NCBI GenBank assembly: GCA_016789025.1
Contig: JAEURC010000022.1
Coordinates: forward strand, 1 to 64,000
Length of the DNA: 64,000 nucleotides
Direction of reading: 5' to 3'
Source: Anaerolineales bacterium
GTDB lineage: Bacteria > Chloroflexota > Anaerolineae > Anaerolineales > Villigracilaceae
The position numbers and the translations under genes were made by a program. Shown here piece by piece: positions 2,274-23,789 of the stretch; the first letter of the stretch is position 1; each line of letters starts with the position of its first letter. The notes beneath the pieces were generated by a model that saw nothing but the letters and a program-made list of their open reading frames with translations, was not told where the DNA came from and searched no databases.

Positions 2274-3014
2274 ATGAATGAACAACAAAAATATTTTTGG
2301 GAAGGAGTCCGCGCCGAAGTACCATTGTTGATCGGCGTCTTTCCATTCGGCATGATCTACGGCGCGCTCGCCATAGACGCCGGGCTATCTGACGTCGCCG
2401 CGCAGATGATGTCTTCGACGGTGTTTGCGGGTTCGGCGCAATTTATCACGGCGCAGCTGGTAAAGGATTCAACGCCAGGGTTTGTGATCGTGTTGACGAT
2501 TGCGGTAGTGAATCTGCGACACATGTTGTACTCCGCTTCGCTCGCCCCCTATCTTGCTTCCGTTTCGACGCGCTGGAAAATGTTGTTGAGTTATCTGCTT
2601 ACCGATGAGGCGTATGCTCCAAGCATTATTCAGTATGAAAATGAAGGCGTCAAACCATTCAGTCATTGGTTCTTGTTCGGCGCGGGAGCCGCGCTGTGGA
2701 TCATCTGGCAGGTCAGCACCGCGTTGGGAATCTTCCTCGGCGCGGCAATCCCCGATTCGTGGTCGCTGGATTTTGCGCTTCCGTTGACGTTCATCGCCAT
2801 GGTCGTGCCGGTGTTGAAGAATCGCCCGTCGGTTGCCGCGGCGTTATCGGCGGGTTGTGTCGCGCTGGCGGCGGGTTCGCTTCCGTATAAATTGGGTTTG
2901 ATCGTTGCCGCATTGGTTGGCATCGCCATTGGGATATTTTTGGAAAAGCGGATGAACGCGACCCCCGACGAGAAACCATCGATTCATGCTTTGCGCGAAT
3001 CTTTGGATGAGTAG
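2274..3014 (+). CDS. azlC: AzlC family branched-chain amino acid exporter, large subunit
   Basis: This 246-residue polytopic membrane protein shows the AzlC hallmark GVFPFGMIYGALA near residues 20-33 and a conserved FAGSAQF segment. AzlC works with the small membrane protein AzlD, whose gene follows directly, to export branched-chain amino acids or analogues such as 4-azaleucine. Length fits the family. The start is supported by the close upstream -10 box and by alignment of the N terminus with the family. Confidence 0.88.
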   Translation: MNEQQKYFWEGVRAEVPLLIGVFPFGMIYGALAIDAGLSDVAAQMMSSTVFAGSAQFITAQLVKDSTPGFVIVLTIAVVNLRHMLYSASLAPYLASVSTRWKMLLSYLLTDEAYAPSIIQYENEGVKPFSHWFLFGAGAALWIIWQVSTALGIFLGAAIPDSWSLDFALPLTFIAMVVPVLKNRPSVAAALSAGCVALAAGSLPYKLGLIVAALVGIAIGIFLEKRMNATPDEKPSIHALRESLDE

Positions 3015-3051
3015 TCATGCGGCGATTCCGTTTAAATCTCTGGGAGAAATA

Positions 3052-3369
3052 ATGAATATCTGGCTTGTGATGCTGGTGGGCGGGTTAATCACGTTCGGAA
3101 TGCGGTTTTCGCTTATCTACGCGTTCGGCAAGCTCCACATTCCCGAAACGATGCGCAAGGCGCTTCACTACGTTCCCCCGGCGGTGCTATCTGCCATTGT
3201 GTTTCCGGAGTTGTTCATCCGCTCCGGCCGTGTTGATGTTTCGCTGGATAACCATCGTCTGCTGGCTGGGCTATTCGCCGTGATCGTTGCATGGGCGAGC
3301 CGGAATACGTTGGTTACCATCCTGGCAGGGATGCTCGCGTTGTTTATCGTACAGACCGTTTTGAAGTAG
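3052..3369 (+). CDS. azlD: AzlD family branched-chain amino acid exporter, small subunit
   Basis: This is a 105-residue membrane protein of the AzlD family (N-terminal MNIWLVMLVGG, then LHIPETMRKALHYVPPAVLSA). The ATG at 3052 is chosen over an earlier in-frame start at 2986 because GGGAGAA lies 4-10 nt upstream and the extra residues would overlap azlC and match nothing in the family. It follows azlC closely and is probably cotranscribed. It ends 2 nt from the end of the convergent gene, so no room is left for a separate terminator. Confidence 0.85.
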   Translation: MNIWLVMLVGGLITFGMRFSLIYAFGKLHIPETMRKALHYVPPAVLSAIVFPELFIRSGRVDVSLDNHRLLAGLFAVIVAWASRNTLVTILAGMLALFIVQTVLK

Positions 3370-3371
3370 GT

Positions 3372-4283
3372 CTACACGTAGACAGTATAGATCTGGTTGT
3401 CTCCGGCGTGTTTGGCAAGGGCAAGCGCTTCGCGCGTATTATTCATCAACGCTTCGATCTCCGTGGAGGCGGTGATGCGCCCCGAAGAAACGATTCCCAC
3501 ACTCAAGTTGACCTTTAACTCGGTATCGTCCATCAAGGTTATTTTGGTGTTGGCAATGCCTTTGAGGATGCGCTCTGACACTTTTTCCGCCTCGGCGCCG
3601 ACCACACCCGGCAGGATGAGGATGAAGGTGTCGCCTTCATATCGTCCAAGCCCATCGTAGGGTCGGCTCTTATCGCGAATCCCTTGTGAGATCAGAGATA
3701 ATACATCATTACCTATGTTTTTGCCGTGCTGGTCAACGATGGCTTTGAAATTTTCAGCCTGAAAGGCGATCAGGCTGAGCGAAGCCTGGTTGCGACGGGC
3801 GCGTTCCAATTCGCCGCGCGCCAGGTTGATGAACGCCATCTGGTTCAAGGCGCCGGTCAGGTTGTCGAGCATGGCGGTGTGATCGAGAGTATCTTTCGCC
3901 TGCACAAGGCGATCGCCCAAGCTGAGAATGCGCTCGCCGATATTCACGCGCGATTTTAATTCCACCGGAACGATCGGCTTGCGCAGATAATCGTCCGCGC
4001 CCGTGCGCGGGGTGGTGACATCCGATTCCTGCACTTTTTGCGTAATGAGCAGGATGTAAATGTAATACGGAGGGCGCGCATCGCGCACCCGGCGGATAAA
4101 GCCCCGTTCATCAATGTCGGTGCCGATGCGGTCAGCGATAACAAAGCGAATCTCTTCGCTGTGCAGAAGTTTCCAAGCAGTGTCGCTATTTTCAGCGATA
4201 ACAACCTCATGACCATTCACTTGTAACACTTGTTGAATGACCGTTCGTTCCATAAGATCGTTGTTGATAACGAGAATTTTCAT
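3372..4283 (-). CDS. Receiver domain plus degenerate GGDEF domain protein
   Basis: Residues 1-120 form a response-regulator receiver domain with probable phosphoacceptor D51 and conserved K102 in YLRKP. Residues about 135-303 resemble a GGDEF domain, but the active-site loop reads YEGDT (215-219) and the usual Asp of the DxDxFK motif is Gln (FQAENFK). Cyclic-di-GMP synthesis is therefore unlikely, and a role as a GTP- or c-di-GMP-binding or purely regulatory output is more plausible. The acidic pair of the receiver is also altered (NND). AGGAG sits 6 nt before the ATG. The gene is monocistronic and convergent with azlCD. Confidence 0.75.
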   Translation of the reverse strand: MKILVINNDLMERTVIQQVLQVNGHEVVIAENSDTAWKLLHSEEIRFVIADRIGTDIDERGFIRRVRDARPPYYIYILLITQKVQESDVTTPRTGADDYLRKPIVPVELKSRVNIGERILSLGDRLVQAKDTLDHTAMLDNLTGALNQMAFINLARGELERARRNQASLSLIAFQAENFKAIVDQHGKNIGNDVLSLISQGIRDKSRPYDGLGRYEGDTFILILPGVVGAEAEKVSERILKGIANTKITLMDDTELKVNLSVGIVSSGRITASTEIEALMNNTREALALAKHAGDNQIYTVYV

Positions 4284-4339: not shown

Positions 4340-4368
4340 TTGACAAACGTATCCTCCCATAGTAATAT
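4340..4368 (+). promoter_or_regulatory. Sigma-70-type promoter of the tRNA
   Basis: TTGACA at 4340-4345 and TAATAT at 4363-4368 are separated by exactly 17 nt and lie 18 nt before the tRNA. This is the best consensus promoter in the window and shows that the housekeeping sigma factor uses standard boxes. Confidence 0.8.
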
Positions 4369-4386: not shown

Positions 4387-4458
4387 GCCGAGGTAGCTCA
4401 GTGGTAGAGCAGGGGACTCATAAGCCCTTGGTCGGGAGTCCGAATCTCCCCCTCGGCA
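4387..4458 (+). tRNA. tRNA with CAU anticodon (Met, or Ile2 if modified)
   Basis: It folds as a 72-nt cloverleaf. The acceptor stem pairs GCCGAGG with CCTCGGC, the D stem GCTC with GAGC, the anticodon loop is CTCATAA and the T stem is GGGAG with CTCCC. CCA is not encoded. Two oddities are an A.G mismatch at the 31:39 position of the anticodon stem and a T loop of TCCGAAT, with C where nearly all tRNAs have U55. Elongator Met is the likeliest identity, because it lacks the three G-C pairs of an initiator anticodon stem. A decayed copy of its 3' half lies at 6022-6060. Confidence 0.85.
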
Positions 4459-4513
4459 CTACCGAAATACGGGACGTAATCCCAAACAGAACCCCAAGAT
4501 ATGGTGGTTTGCT

Positions 4514-4547
4514 AAAGGACTAAACAGTGGATTCTGTTTAGTCCTTT
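4514..4547. other. Perfect 14-bp hairpin downstream of the tRNA
   Basis: AAAGGACTAAACAG pairs perfectly with CTGTTTAGTCCTTT across a 6-nt loop. It lacks a good T tract on the plus strand. It could terminate the tRNA transcript, terminate the convergent transporter mRNA, or be a structural end of the inserted segment. Confidence 0.6.
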
Positions 4548-4593
4548 GGATTCCCGATCTACTGTATTAGTGTCTCGAGTCGATGGCTTGTGT

Positions 4594-5853
4594 TTAGAGC
4601 AAATCTAAAAAAATAAATGCCAAGACTGCCCCGACCACCGACATCGAAATTCCCCACAGCAACAGTTGCCTAAAGATCACAGATCTATCGACAGATGCTG
4701 GGAGCGCCGCCAAACATAACGCCCCAAGTGTGGATAAGGGACTCACGTCAACGAGATGCGAGCCGACATTGACCGCGACAACCATGTCAATGAGATCTCC
4801 GCCACCGAGCGCTTGAATCAGTCGAGGCAGGAGAGGAATAAAAGTTGGCATCACCACGCCTGATGAACTACTATAGATTGACACCATGCCTGTAATGAAA
4901 GCCAGCAGAGCATTCACAGTATTAGGAGTTGAATAGGAGGCTAGCACATTCGTTGCCAGATCTAGGCTACCGGTCGTTTCGAGCAGACCGACTAAAACAC
5001 TGATCCCTGCCACCAAAGAGATGACACCCCATGGCAAGTGCTGAAGACCCACTTCCACATCGCCGATTTTAAATAACGCTAACAAGCCCGCCAGCACAAA
5101 AGCGCCGACAACGACTGCTACGTTGAAGACAATAACGCCAATTACCAATGCCAAGATGGCGATCAAGGTAATGATGTGCTGTACATGAAAAGGTTGCGCC
5201 TGTGATGATGATTGAGCGACAGCACTAACCTCCGCGCTCCGTTGAATACGAAATCCCTGAAAGACAAAATATGCAACCAGCGCGCTTATTGATTGCAATG
5301 CAGCCACAAGGAGGAAAATCTGCAATGTAGTCGAGGGGTCATTAATGCCGATCTTGTTCATGAGCCCCACATTGACGATACCGGTCAGCGCTACCGGTGA
5401 AAACGCGCCAGCGTTTGCGCCAGTACAAATCATGATTGCCATCACGATCGGGCGAATGTTTGAGTTCAACGCGACTACCATTCCAATGGGCGCGATCAAA
5501 GCAACTGCCGCGATGTTGCCCGGGCCAATGGCTGAAAAGACAAAAGTGAGAAAGAAGAAGACGAAAGGAAGCAGAGCCGGGTTTCCGCGCGCGCTTCGTA
5601 TCGCGAATCCAGCCAGCCGATCCAGCGTGCCGTTTTGTTGTGCCATCCCAAACAGCAAAGTTATGCCAACAAGGGTCAATACGAGCTGTTCGGGTAAATA
5701 GGTGGATACTTCACTTACACTCAAACCCGCAAAATATACGCCAACGATGTACGCCAATGCCACAGCCAGAACACCTGTATTCAAATCTGTTCTGAAGGCG
5801 GAGATCGCGATCACAATAACAAGGGCAAGTAGGGCGAGAATGGCAAGAGACAT
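4594..5853 (-). CDS. MatC/SLC13-like dicarboxylate transporter
   Basis: This is a 419-residue integral membrane protein with about 11-12 hydrophobic segments. The N-terminal half carries MatC_N-like landmarks, namely TLVGITLLFGMAQQNGT, a GPGNIAAVALIAPIGM loop and a GANAGAFSPVALTG loop. The second half repeats the topology with a VSPLSTLGALCLA re-entrant-type motif. Members of this group are thought to carry malonate, other dicarboxylates or similar anions, but the substrate here is not established. The gene stands alone between an intact tRNA and a degraded tRNA 3' end, facing the tRNA, which suggests that it arrived as cargo of an integrated element. AGGAAG lies shortly before the ATG. Confidence 0.72.
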   Translation of the reverse strand: MSLAILALLALVIVIAISAFRTDLNTGVLAVALAYIVGVYFAGLSVSEVSTYLPEQLVLTLVGITLLFGMAQQNGTLDRLAGFAIRSARGNPALLPFVFFFLTFVFSAIGPGNIAAVALIAPIGMVVALNSNIRPIVMAIMICTGANAGAFSPVALTGIVNVGLMNKIGINDPSTTLQIFLLVAALQSISALVAYFVFQGFRIQRSAEVSAVAQSSSQAQPFHVQHIITLIAILALVIGVIVFNVAVVVGAFVLAGLLALFKIGDVEVGLQHLPWGVISLVAGISVLVGLLETTGSLDLATNVLASYSTPNTVNALLAFITGMVSIYSSSSGVVMPTFIPLLPRLIQALGGGDLIDMVVAVNVGSHLVDVSPLSTLGALCLAALPASVDRSVIFRQLLLWGISMSVVGAVLAFIFLDLL

Positions 5854-6021
5854 GATACAGTTGGCTTCCTGAACTGACCCAAGATTCTAATCGTATTTTG
5901 AATATTGTCTAGATAGACAGTATGCGGTATCAACGAGACGGTGATTCAAAGGAATATGACGTCTCAAAAGATTCTGAAAATATCTCTACTTGCTGAACAT
6001 GTCAATGTTGTGAATCTAATT

Positions 6022-6060
6022 CATAAGCCCCGGATGAGAGTTTAAATTTCCCCTCGGCAC
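6022..6060 (+). pseudogene. Decayed 3' half of the CAU tRNA (attR-like)
   Basis: Starting at the anticodon, CATAAGCCC and the terminal CCCCTCGGCAC are identical to the intact tRNA at 4387-4458. Most differences in the T arm are transitions, as expected of neutral decay. No 5' half is present. A terminator follows at once, so this looks like the original tRNA end displaced by an insertion. Confidence 0.72.
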
Positions 6061-6065
6061 GAACG

Positions 6066-6094
6066 AAGACCACGTCATGCGGTCTTTTTGTTTT
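6066..6094 (+). terminator. Rho-independent terminator after the tRNA remnant
   Basis: AAGACC and GGTCTT form a stem around a 9-nt loop and are followed by a T-rich run (TTTTGTTTT). It probably served the original tRNA gene. Confidence 0.65.
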
Positions 6095-6146
6095 ACGGAT
6101 AGAATATCAACAGGATTCAAACCACGCTTCACTTCGGACCTTCGGC

Positions 6147-14926: not shown

Positions 14927-16713
14927 CACGACTCCAATACACTTATGAAATCAAACTTCGTCACATCCACCAAACCTTTATCCGAGATTCGCAATTCGGG
15001 GATGACCACCAACGCGAGCAAACTCAATTGCATGTTCGGGTTGTTCAACTCGCACCCGCACATTTTGAATCCCTCCAAAATGGATTCGGCTTTGCGCGCG
15101 ACGATGTCCGCTTTTTCGGTGGACATCAGCCCCGCGATCTTCAACTCGACTTGACCGATCACCTCGCCATTGCGGACGACAACCTGACCGCCTCCGCTTC
15201 GCGCCAAGGTGTTGCCTGCCACCGCCATAGACGCATCGTCGGTCCCCACGACGATCATGTGATGCGAGTCGTGCGCGACGGTTGAAGCGATGGCGCACTT
15301 CGCAGTGAACCCGAACCCGCTGACGAGTCCCAGCGTGATTCCGCCCGTGCCTCTGTGACGTTCGACGAGCGCGATCTTGGCGAGGTCGCGAGTGATGTCG
15401 GCTTTGATCTCGCCGTTGACGGGTTGAACATCAAATTTCAAATGTTTTGTGCCTGCGTGATTTTCGATGACGCCGATGACATTGGCTTTGACCTTCGACG
15501 TTTGACCTTTGACCAATAATTTAAAGTCTTCCGCTTTCAACTTTCTCTTCAACTTCACGGAATTTTTCACCCACGCGGGATAAGAAGATTTTGGCAGATT
15601 CACTTTCCACTTTCCACTCTCCGCGATTACCTTACCTTTTGCAATGACAACATCTGCCCCAAAGTTTTTCAAATCTTGCGCCAACACCACATCCGCCCAG
15701 CGACCTGGGGCGATCATGCCCATGTCTTTGCTCACGCCGAAATGCTCGGCGGCGTTGATGGTCATCATCTGAATCGCGGTGACGGGGTCGAGTCCCTGCT
15801 CGATGGCGTGACGCAAGACGCGATCCATGTGACCTTCGCCCGTCAACGTCCCTGCGTGCGAATCGTCGGTGACAAGGATGAAGTGACGCGAGTCTAATTT
15901 CTTTTCGGTGATGGCTTTGACTTGCGCCTCCACGTCGAACCACGCCGAGCCGTAACGGAGCATGGATTTCATTCCCTGCCGCACGCGCGCAACCGCGTCT
16001 TCGAGGCGCGTGCCTTCGTGGTCGTCCTCCGCGCCGCCTGCGACGTAACCATGAAATGGGATTCCCAAATCGGGCGAGGCGTAATGCCCGCCGATGGTTT
16101 TGCCCGCCGCATGAGTAAGCGACATTTCATCGAGCATCTTTTTGTCGCCCATGAACACGCCGGGGAAGTTCATCATCTCACCCAAGCCGATGATGCCCTT
16201 CCACTTCATCGCGGTCGCTACTTCTTTGGGACCAAGCGTTGCGCCGGGAGTTTCAAACCCGGGCGCGGACGGAACGCACGACGGCATCTGCACCCAAACA
16301 TGGATCGGTTGCTTCTGCGCTTCGTCCACCATCAACTTGACGCCGCGCAAGCCGAACACATTGGCGATCTCATGCGGATCAATGAACATGCCCGTCGTGC
16401 CGCGGACCGCCACCGCGCGAACAAATTCGGTGACAGTCACCATCCCTGACTCAACGTGCATGTGCGCGTCGAGCAAGCCGGGGACGAGGTATCGCCCGTT
16501 CGCTTCGATTACCTTTGTCTTTTTGCCGATGGCGTGACTCGCGTCATTTCCGACGTAGGCGACTCGCCCATCCTTGACGGCGATATCCGTCTTGGCAACG
16601 ATCTCGCCCGATTGCACGCTTACCCACTGACCGTCCCGAATCACAAGGTCGGCAGGGACGCGTCCCATGGCGGTGTCAACGAGTGCGCGGGTTAGTTTGG
16701 TGGAGGAGGGCAT
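14926..16713 (-). CDS. ade: Adenine deaminase
   Basis: This is a 595-residue amidohydrolase that converts adenine to hypoxanthine and ammonia. Metal residues are seen in LDAHMHVES (H84, H86), the IDPHEIANVFG segment, GHYASPDL and the VTDDSHAGTL region. Length and domain order match bacterial Ade. Two stretches near residues 364-371 and 399-409 are encoded by simple repeats (GTGGAAAGTGGAAAG and GGTCAAAGGTCAAACG types) and lie between the catalytic and C-terminal domains. CGGAG precedes the ATG. It is translationally coupled to the GntR regulator. Confidence 0.92.
   Translation of the reverse strand: MPSSTKLTRALVDTAMGRVPADLVIRDGQWVSVQSGEIVAKTDIAVKDGRVAYVGNDASHAIGKKTKVIEANGRYLVPGLLDAHMHVESGMVTVTEFVRAVAVRGTTGMFIDPHEIANVFGLRGVKLMVDEAQKQPIHVWVQMPSCVPSAPGFETPGATLGPKEVATAMKWKGIIGLGEMMNFPGVFMGDKKMLDEMSLTHAAGKTIGGHYASPDLGIPFHGYVAGGAEDDHEGTRLEDAVARVRQGMKSMLRYGSAWFDVEAQVKAITEKKLDSRHFILVTDDSHAGTLTGEGHMDRVLRHAIEQGLDPVTAIQMMTINAAEHFGVSKDMGMIAPGRWADVVLAQDLKNFGADVVIAKGKVIAESGKWKVNLPKSSYPAWVKNSVKLKRKLKAEDFKLLVKGQTSKVKANVIGVIENHAGTKHLKFDVQPVNGEIKADITRDLAKIALVERHRGTGGITLGLVSGFGFTAKCAIASTVAHDSHHMIVVGTDDASMAVAGNTLARSGGGQVVVRNGEVIGQVELKIAGLMSTEKADIVARKAESILEGFKMCGCELNNPNMQLSLLALVVIPELRISDKGLVDVTKFDFISVLES
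15487..15519. repeat. TTTGACC-type tandem repeat inside ade
   Basis: TTTGACCTTCGACGTTTGACC and an adjoining TTTGACC unit are tandem copies of a heptamer-like string. The same string recurs in an M20 peptidase gene at 61299-61332. Here it adds about 11 in-frame residues (KGQTSKVKA). Confidence 0.6.
15601..15622. repeat. CACTTTCCACTTTCCAC repeat inside ade
   Basis: Two CACTTTCCA units in tandem give the in-frame residues GKWKVNL. A related TACTTTCCAC string lies in the GMC oxidoreductase gene at 52931-52970. Confidence 0.55.
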
Positions 16714-22712: not shown

Positions 22713-23789
22713 ATGAATACCCTCAAACGAACCTCCCTTGTCTTTGCCGTTCTCGCGTTTGCACTCGTGGCGTGCGGGTTACCTGCCGCGCCAACGACTC
22801 AGCCCTCGGTAACGGCTGCCGAACCCGTCGAGACCCAGCCCGCCGAAGCCGCGACCAGCCTGCCCGTCGAAAACGAAGCGGGCGGAGCCGTCCTGCTCTT
22901 CGATATCGGAATGCACATCGAGCCGATGGGCGAAACCGTGCAAGGATTTCAAAGTGGCAAGAACGATTATCACAACCCGCAGTTCTTCGAGAGACAGGTG
23001 GAGGATATTCGCTTTCTGACTCAAATGATCGAAGCGCACGGCGGACGCATGACCATTCAGGCGCAGAGTCCGTTTACGACGGTGGCGATTGAATCGGGCA
23101 ATACCATCCTCGCCGACCTCGCCGCGCGCGGACATGAACTCGCCCTGCACTTCCACGAAGACGCGCATCTCGGGAAAAATCCCGAACCGCTTTCCGTTCA
23201 GCAATGGTGCGACGTGATGAAGGAAGAACTCGGTTACATCATGCAGGCGGGCGGCGTGAGCGACGTCCGCTATTGGAGCGGCGGCAATTTATACGTCAAC
23301 TTGTACGAAGCCGCCGAATGCGCGGGCTTGGATGTGAACAGCGATTGGAAGAGTCCCGACACGCAGTCCACCGATATGTCGCTGATCGGCGTGAACCCTT
23401 GGCGACCCGCAGGCGGCACCGACGGCTCTGACTTCACGCTCTTTACGCAACACGATCCCAACGGCGCAATCGTCTTCCTGCCCGAAGGTCAATACGATAA
23501 AGAAAATTTCGCGTCCATGCGCCGAAGCGAAGACTCGGGCGGGAACGAAGCCTATTTTGAATATCTCAAAGAGAGTCTCTATGCCTCGCTTTCAGCCGCG
23601 CAGGCGGGCAAGGTCAACGTCTTTCATTTCACCGTTCACCCTGGCGAATTTCGCGGCGACCCGCAAGACCCCTTCGGCGTGATCGAACGCTTCCTCACCG
23701 AAGTCGTTGATCCCCTCGTCGCTAGCGGGCAACTGCAATGGGCGACTTATTCCGAGATGGCGGATGCGTATGCCGCGACAGAGCCGTAA
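22713..23789 (+). CDS. Secreted lipoprotein, polysaccharide-deacetylase-like
   Basis: This is a 358-residue protein with a lipoprotein signal peptide (lipobox LVAC at about residues 18-21) followed by a Pro/Thr/Glu-rich linker. The globular domain resembles a NodB-type beta/alpha barrel, with LLFDIGMHIEP as a candidate metal-Asp strand, GHELALHFHED as the HxxxH-like strand and FHFTVHPGEF as the C-terminal His strand. It is probably a surface-anchored esterase or deacetylase, though the family match is distant. The start at 22713 is fixed by AAGGAGAAA and the signal peptide. Confidence 0.65.
   Translation: MNTLKRTSLVFAVLAFALVACGLPAAPTTQPSVTAAEPVETQPAEAATSLPVENEAGGAVLLFDIGMHIEPMGETVQGFQSGKNDYHNPQFFERQVEDIRFLTQMIEAHGGRMTIQAQSPFTTVAIESGNTILADLAARGHELALHFHEDAHLGKNPEPLSVQQWCDVMKEELGYIMQAGGVSDVRYWSGGNLYVNLYEAAECAGLDVNSDWKSPDTQSTDMSLIGVNPWRPAGGTDGSDFTLFTQHDPNGAIVFLPEGQYDKENFASMRRSEDSGGNEAYFEYLKESLYASLSAAQAGKVNVFHFTVHPGEFRGDPQDPFGVIERFLTEVVDPLVASGQLQWATYSEMADAYAATEP

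Follow-up and report, generated by a model that had tools for sequence, protein, structure and literature searches.

A 1.6-kb insert behind a tRNA(CAU) gene of an Anaerolineales bacterium, very probably a tRNA island reduced to its ends and one transporter gene

The 1.6-kb insert that follows a tRNA(CAU) gene in this genome is very probably an old tRNA island, reduced by deletion to its two ends and one gene. This reading is carried by an empty site in a relative, by sites occupied by integrase-bearing elements in other relatives, by element-type sequence at both inner ends of the insert, and by the decay of the displaced half of the tRNA gene. The insert is a clear example of an already known kind, namely the relic of a family of integrating elements whose members in related Anaerolineales still sit at this tRNA, integrase included. 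In a group of Anaerolineales, one tRNA gene thereby displays several stages of the island cycle: empty, with the integrase intact, with the integrase broken, and reduced to ends plus a single gene. It offers a compact case of one gene being kept while the mobile part is lost, and leaves the general picture unchanged.

The tRNA gene, its decayed copy and the ends of the insert

The window, that is, the whole stretch of DNA analysed, comprises bases 1-64000 of contig C22 of a 3.41-Mb assembly in 103 contigs. Its features at this locus are listed below.

4340-4368, plus strand: sigma-70-type promoter of the tRNA gene (TTGACA-17-TAATAT), from a consensus scan and an arrangement conserved in relatives
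4387-4459, plus strand: complete tRNA(CAU) gene, serving as attL (ARAGORN; Rfam RF00005, 66.2 bits)
4418-4427, plus strand: TCATAAGCCC, anticodon-loop core, exact in both attL and the remnant
4460-4549, plus strand: inner left end of the lost element, by homology with the left end of the element in G005
4514-4527 and 4534-4547: arms (14 bp each) of a hairpin inside the left end, fold z -6.1
4594-5853, minus strand: MatC-type (CitMHS) transporter gene, 419 aa, intact, the sole gene left in the insert (Pfam)
5977-6005, minus strand: possible promoter of the transporter gene (TTGACA-17-TATTTT), a consensus match only
6009-6019, plus strand: TGTGAATCTAA, inner right end of the lost element (junction motif; similarity to G011)
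6020-6060, plus strand: decayed tRNA 3' half, the attR remnant and displaced original 3' half
6066-6094, plus strand: probable terminator that first belonged to the tRNA gene and is now separated from it by the insert (alignment with G011; own fold weak)

The intact CAU tRNA that an earlier note had placed at one end of the insert is called by both ARAGORN and Rfam. It is the single full copy in the genome, and one second CAU tRNA gene is found among the tRNA loci read from that genome. ARAGORN labels the gene tRNA-Met, although elongator Met and Ile2 are not separable on sequence alone. The TTGACA-17-TAATAT arrangement is also present upstream of the tRNA in the relatives compared. By the usual mechanism of such integrations, the 5' half of the gene would be chromosomal and its 3' half supplied by the element. 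Elsewhere in the window, ARAGORN gives a tRNA-like match with a two-base anticodon (23118-23212, minus strand); Rfam lends it no support and it is probably false.

At the far end, positions 6020-6060 align with the tRNA from the anticodon loop to the 3' end, with 32 of 43 columns identical and a local alignment score of 40, compared with a maximum of 25 over 2000 shuffles. This bears out the proposal that a decayed 3' half of the same tRNA lies there. No trace of a tRNA 5' half precedes the remnant (score 8, equalled by 95% of shuffles). The 10-mer TCATAAGCCC occurs in the window only in attL and the remnant, where 0.04 occurrences are expected, and this anticodon-loop core is the probable crossover region.

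The remnant differs from the tRNA by 8 transitions, 1 transversion and 2 single-base gaps, so that 9 of the 41 aligned bases are substituted. The synonymous distance between the window and G012, a close relative with matching flank genes, is mostly 0.35-0.85 per gene. Half of a typical value is about 0.2-0.4, so the substitutions in the remnant agree with neutral decay that has lasted about as long as the separation from G012. The earlier suggestion that transitions had accumulated as in neutral decay holds in this respect, but part of the T-arm differences may not be decay, as the remnant is, with 34 identities, a slightly closer fit to the TTCAAAT type of T loop than to the TCCGAAT type of the current tRNA (32 identities). 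Judged from the sequences, such a fit would be compatible with an element-supplied 3' half in the current gene, a case weakened by the smallness of the difference and by a tract of exchange that reaches the vicinity of the tRNA. In this tract (2274-4283), azlC, azlD and a response regulator gene show a dS of 0.01-0.22 to G012, compared with 0.35-0.84 for the other genes compared; it is likely a recent homologous exchange ending near the tRNA.

The left inner end (4460-4549) and the sequence behind the same tRNA in G005 share 79% identity over 91 bp (E 2.8e-15), with a score of 86 against a shuffle maximum of 25. In a search of 152 family genomes it was matched only by itself and by G005, and it has no similarity above chance to the integrase-bearing type of left end.

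On the right, TGTGAATCTAA stands directly before the remnant and fits the motif TGTGNNTCTAA, which adjoins the displaced half in G010, G011, G015 and G019. The motif has a single site in the window's genome and the reversed control pattern has none; since TGTGNNTCTAA was written with the window's TGTGAATCTAA in view, this count is not an independent test. A better measure, though a short one, is the comparison with G011 at the same offset, in which 11 of 12 positions of the TGTGAATCTAA region are identical. Across elements, the common right-end sequence spans 12 bp, with 10-11 identical, and this shortness counts against the reading of the insert as a reduced island. Positions 6008-6100 align at 82% identity across 96 bp with the corresponding stretch of G011, where the terminator falls on the sequence that immediately follows the displaced half. 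The terminator claimed after the remnant is plausible from this alignment; it is not a strong call, given that its fold z is -1.15 and the consensus scan missed it.

Empty and occupied sites at the same tRNA gene

The earlier note had proposed looking in relatives for an empty site, with the tRNA directly followed by the terminator. Such a site is seen in G012, where the tRNA, 80 bp with a terminator-like sequence, and an amidohydrolase gene follow one another on one contig with no insert. The tRNA of G012 lies in a 95-bp overlap of two contigs, and contig C78 on its own contains the complete tRNA with 26 bp in front of it and the right flank behind. The left flank of the window is 88.7% identical to that of G012 over 4.16 kb, and the right flank 83-91%. 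Given that both flanks are collinear with G012, an assembly misjoin in the window is unlikely. In G014, G006 and G016, too, a terminator-like sequence directly follows the tRNA. No relative was seen to hold the transporter at this tRNA without the remnant, and there is no sign of a once-complete tandem tRNA.

A search for the tRNA in relatives returned, in many of them, one complete tRNA and, apart from it, a fragment beginning at the anticodon loop. In the genus members G011, G013, G015 and G017, an intact tyrosine integrase of 312 aa lies behind the same tRNA, those of the latter three being 89-98% identical to that of G011. Between the tRNA and the start codon of the integrase lie 60 bp in G011, G017 and G013, as against 59 bp in G015 and G010; the integrase of G010 is broken, with parts 4-72 and 275-312 remaining. 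Among public genomes, the tRNA stands just upstream in 11 of 13 loci of the 312-aa integrase; at the remaining 2, the match is without the N-terminus and the locus holds no tRNA. The integrase had no match in viral contigs. An exact 43-bp displaced 3' half of the tRNA is found 31 kb downstream in G011 and 27 kb downstream in G015, and G010, G017 and G008 likewise have exact copies of the 3' half, there on other contigs. For the occupied sites of G015 and G010, the matching empty site is that of G002, with right flanks that are 96.6% and 90% identical, respectively, over about 470 bp.

The insert shares with the elements of G011, G013, G015 and G017 the tRNA occupied and, where the far end is seen, the boundary of the displaced half at the anticodon loop; with those of G011 and G015, it also shares the right junction motif. 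Unlike the insert, these four elements are 27-31 kb long where traced, have an intact integrase and, where examined (G011 and G015), carry AbiE or restriction-modification genes, and their left inner end is of a different type from that of the window. The left end of the window is instead of the type found in G005, whose element at the same tRNA carries, unlike the insert, an AAA_25 protein and type I restriction-modification genes; it has no integrase next to the tRNA. The right end of the G005 element was not found, contigs C48 and C36 having no overlap. That the window's left end is closest to an element of this sort counts against the reduced-island reading as well.

Several further observations concern these elements. 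The full-size elements of G011 (L093/L094, G011:C1:838000-876000) and G015 (L081/L082, G015:C2:1030000-1068000) hold AbiE-like and type I or IIG restriction-modification genes, and have in common a right-end block of ATPase-like and other genes, of which those tested gave few matches or none in Pfam and PADLOC. Within the subset of element proteins tested, none was recognised as the product of a relaxase or conjugation gene. Two types of tyrosine recombinase lie close together at contig starts in G005 (L145, G005:C36:1-9000) and G008 (L146, G008:C36:1-9000), with a primase-polymerase gene near those of G005. In G015 (L081), the right flank beyond the displaced half resembles the left end of another element since lost, as does the flank beyond the tRNA in G002 (L080); this suggests that integration and decay have taken place repeatedly at these sites.

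The statement that no recombinase is left in the insert was confirmed, as a tblastn search of its two spacers with eight related integrases detected no integrase relic. Between the tRNA and the remnant there are no integration or transfer genes, the transporter gene standing alone. No integrase of the tRNA(CAU) element family is encoded in the window's genome either, where the best match is 31% identical and lies on another contig.

Origin of the insert and of its transporter gene

The earlier view of the insert as the footprint of a tRNA-targeting element is supported by the empty site of G012 together with the integrase-bearing elements that occupy this tRNA in relatives, their exact displaced halves and the element-type inner ends. 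The course of events that we infer is as follows. An integrative element would have entered the anticodon-loop region of the tRNA(CAU) gene by tyrosine-integrase recombination, supplying a 3' half of its own that made the tRNA complete again, and pushing the original 3' half and terminator to the far end. Later deletions would have removed the integrase and nearly all else, leaving both outer ends and the transporter gene, which was under selection. The displaced 3' half, no longer needed, would then have decayed, while the tRNA was kept intact because it is in use.

The transporter gene is as the earlier note described it, alone between tRNA and remnant. Its product belongs to the MatC/CitMHS family, with both Pfam profiles above the curated cut-off (MatC_N, 9.8e-34, 117 bits, cut-off 23; CitMHS, 1.5e-20, 74 bits, cut-off 31.9). 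Compared with the homologue of G011, it shows a dN of 0.14 and a dS of 1.85, and hence purifying selection. Of 301 genomes of the order, 8 have homologues at E <= 1e-60, a count that includes the genome of the window itself. A sequence search at E 0.01 returned no solved structure, and no match was found in viral contigs. A tie of the transporter to mobile elements elsewhere was rejected, all plasmid and phage matches being below 60% identity and below 80% coverage. The composition of the gene, which had been put forward as a check, proved only mildly unusual: with a GC3 of 0.53, where the mean is 0.63, it has rank 6 among 52 ORFs and a z of -1.3. We rejected this as too weak to prove a foreign origin; acquisition by transfer is possible, judging from the sequence. 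The transporter may have come in with the element as its original cargo.

Homologues of the transporter in G011, G018, G302 and G277 have no tRNA found near them, and a separate entry into the site is therefore possible. The element might have been reduced first, with the transporter entering the relic site later as a separate event. Also in keeping with this is the absence of a MatC transporter among the proteins of full-size elements examined. We nevertheless consider it the less likely course, as the transporter sits between both element ends, and a search that left target duplications aside found no transposase or other sign of a second insertion.

The earlier note had left the choice between an old island reduced to its cargo, which is favoured here, and a satellite mobilised in trans. 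As a minimal satellite, the insert would never have had an integrase and, carrying the transporter, would still be moved through its two att sites by the integrases of the tRNA(CAU) elements of the genus. Such integrases do exist in the genus, both ends of the insert resemble element ends, and the 10-bp core is identical at both sites. However, the attR half is only 74% identical with two deletions, whereas the displaced halves of integrase-bearing elements are exact copies, and the window's genome lacks an integrase of the family. A second copy of window-type ends with transporter cargo was not found either, in 152 family genomes searched for the left end and 60 relatives searched for the cargo. 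Given that one att site has decayed and that there is no such second copy, a satellite is very improbable.

Tandem duplication of the tRNA, with the second copy having lost its 5' half, is less credible still and was rejected: in other genomes, e.g. G025, the 3' end of the tRNA is indeed repeated in tandem behind the gene, but the 5' half has left no trace before the remnant, element-type sequence lies on both inner sides, and relatives carry inserts of 27-31 kb with an integrase between tRNA and half. At the G025 locus (L099, G025:C1, locus positions ~16240-16510), the 3' end of the tRNA and a terminator-like sequence are present behind the gene as two tandem copies with a spacing of 72 bp.

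Relation to known islands

Tyrosine integrases that target tRNA genes split the gene on integration, after which the element makes the gene whole again and the fragment that it displaced is left as a marker of the far end (PMC4383910). The Islander paper counts 2083 islands with an anticodon-centred site (PMC4383910). Read as a reduced island, the insert resembles these tDNA islands in having a regenerated, complete tRNA at one end, a displaced 3' fragment in the same orientation at the other, and an anticodon-loop subsite. It differs from them in that Islander requires an integrase gene inside and intact att sites (PMC4383910), whereas the insert has no integrase and its fragment has decayed.

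A CIME (cis-mobilizable element) is defined by the loss of integration and transfer genes with its ends kept (PMC5704250), and the insert likewise lacks such genes. Of its two ends, attL is intact; attR is recognisable and has an intact 10-bp core, but is so strongly decayed overall that mobilisation of the insert is doubtful. Unlike a CIME, it has no accreted partner, and its parent is not shown to be conjugative or mobilizable. With attR decayed and descent from an ICE or IME not demonstrated, we call the insert CIME-like rather than a confirmed member of the class.
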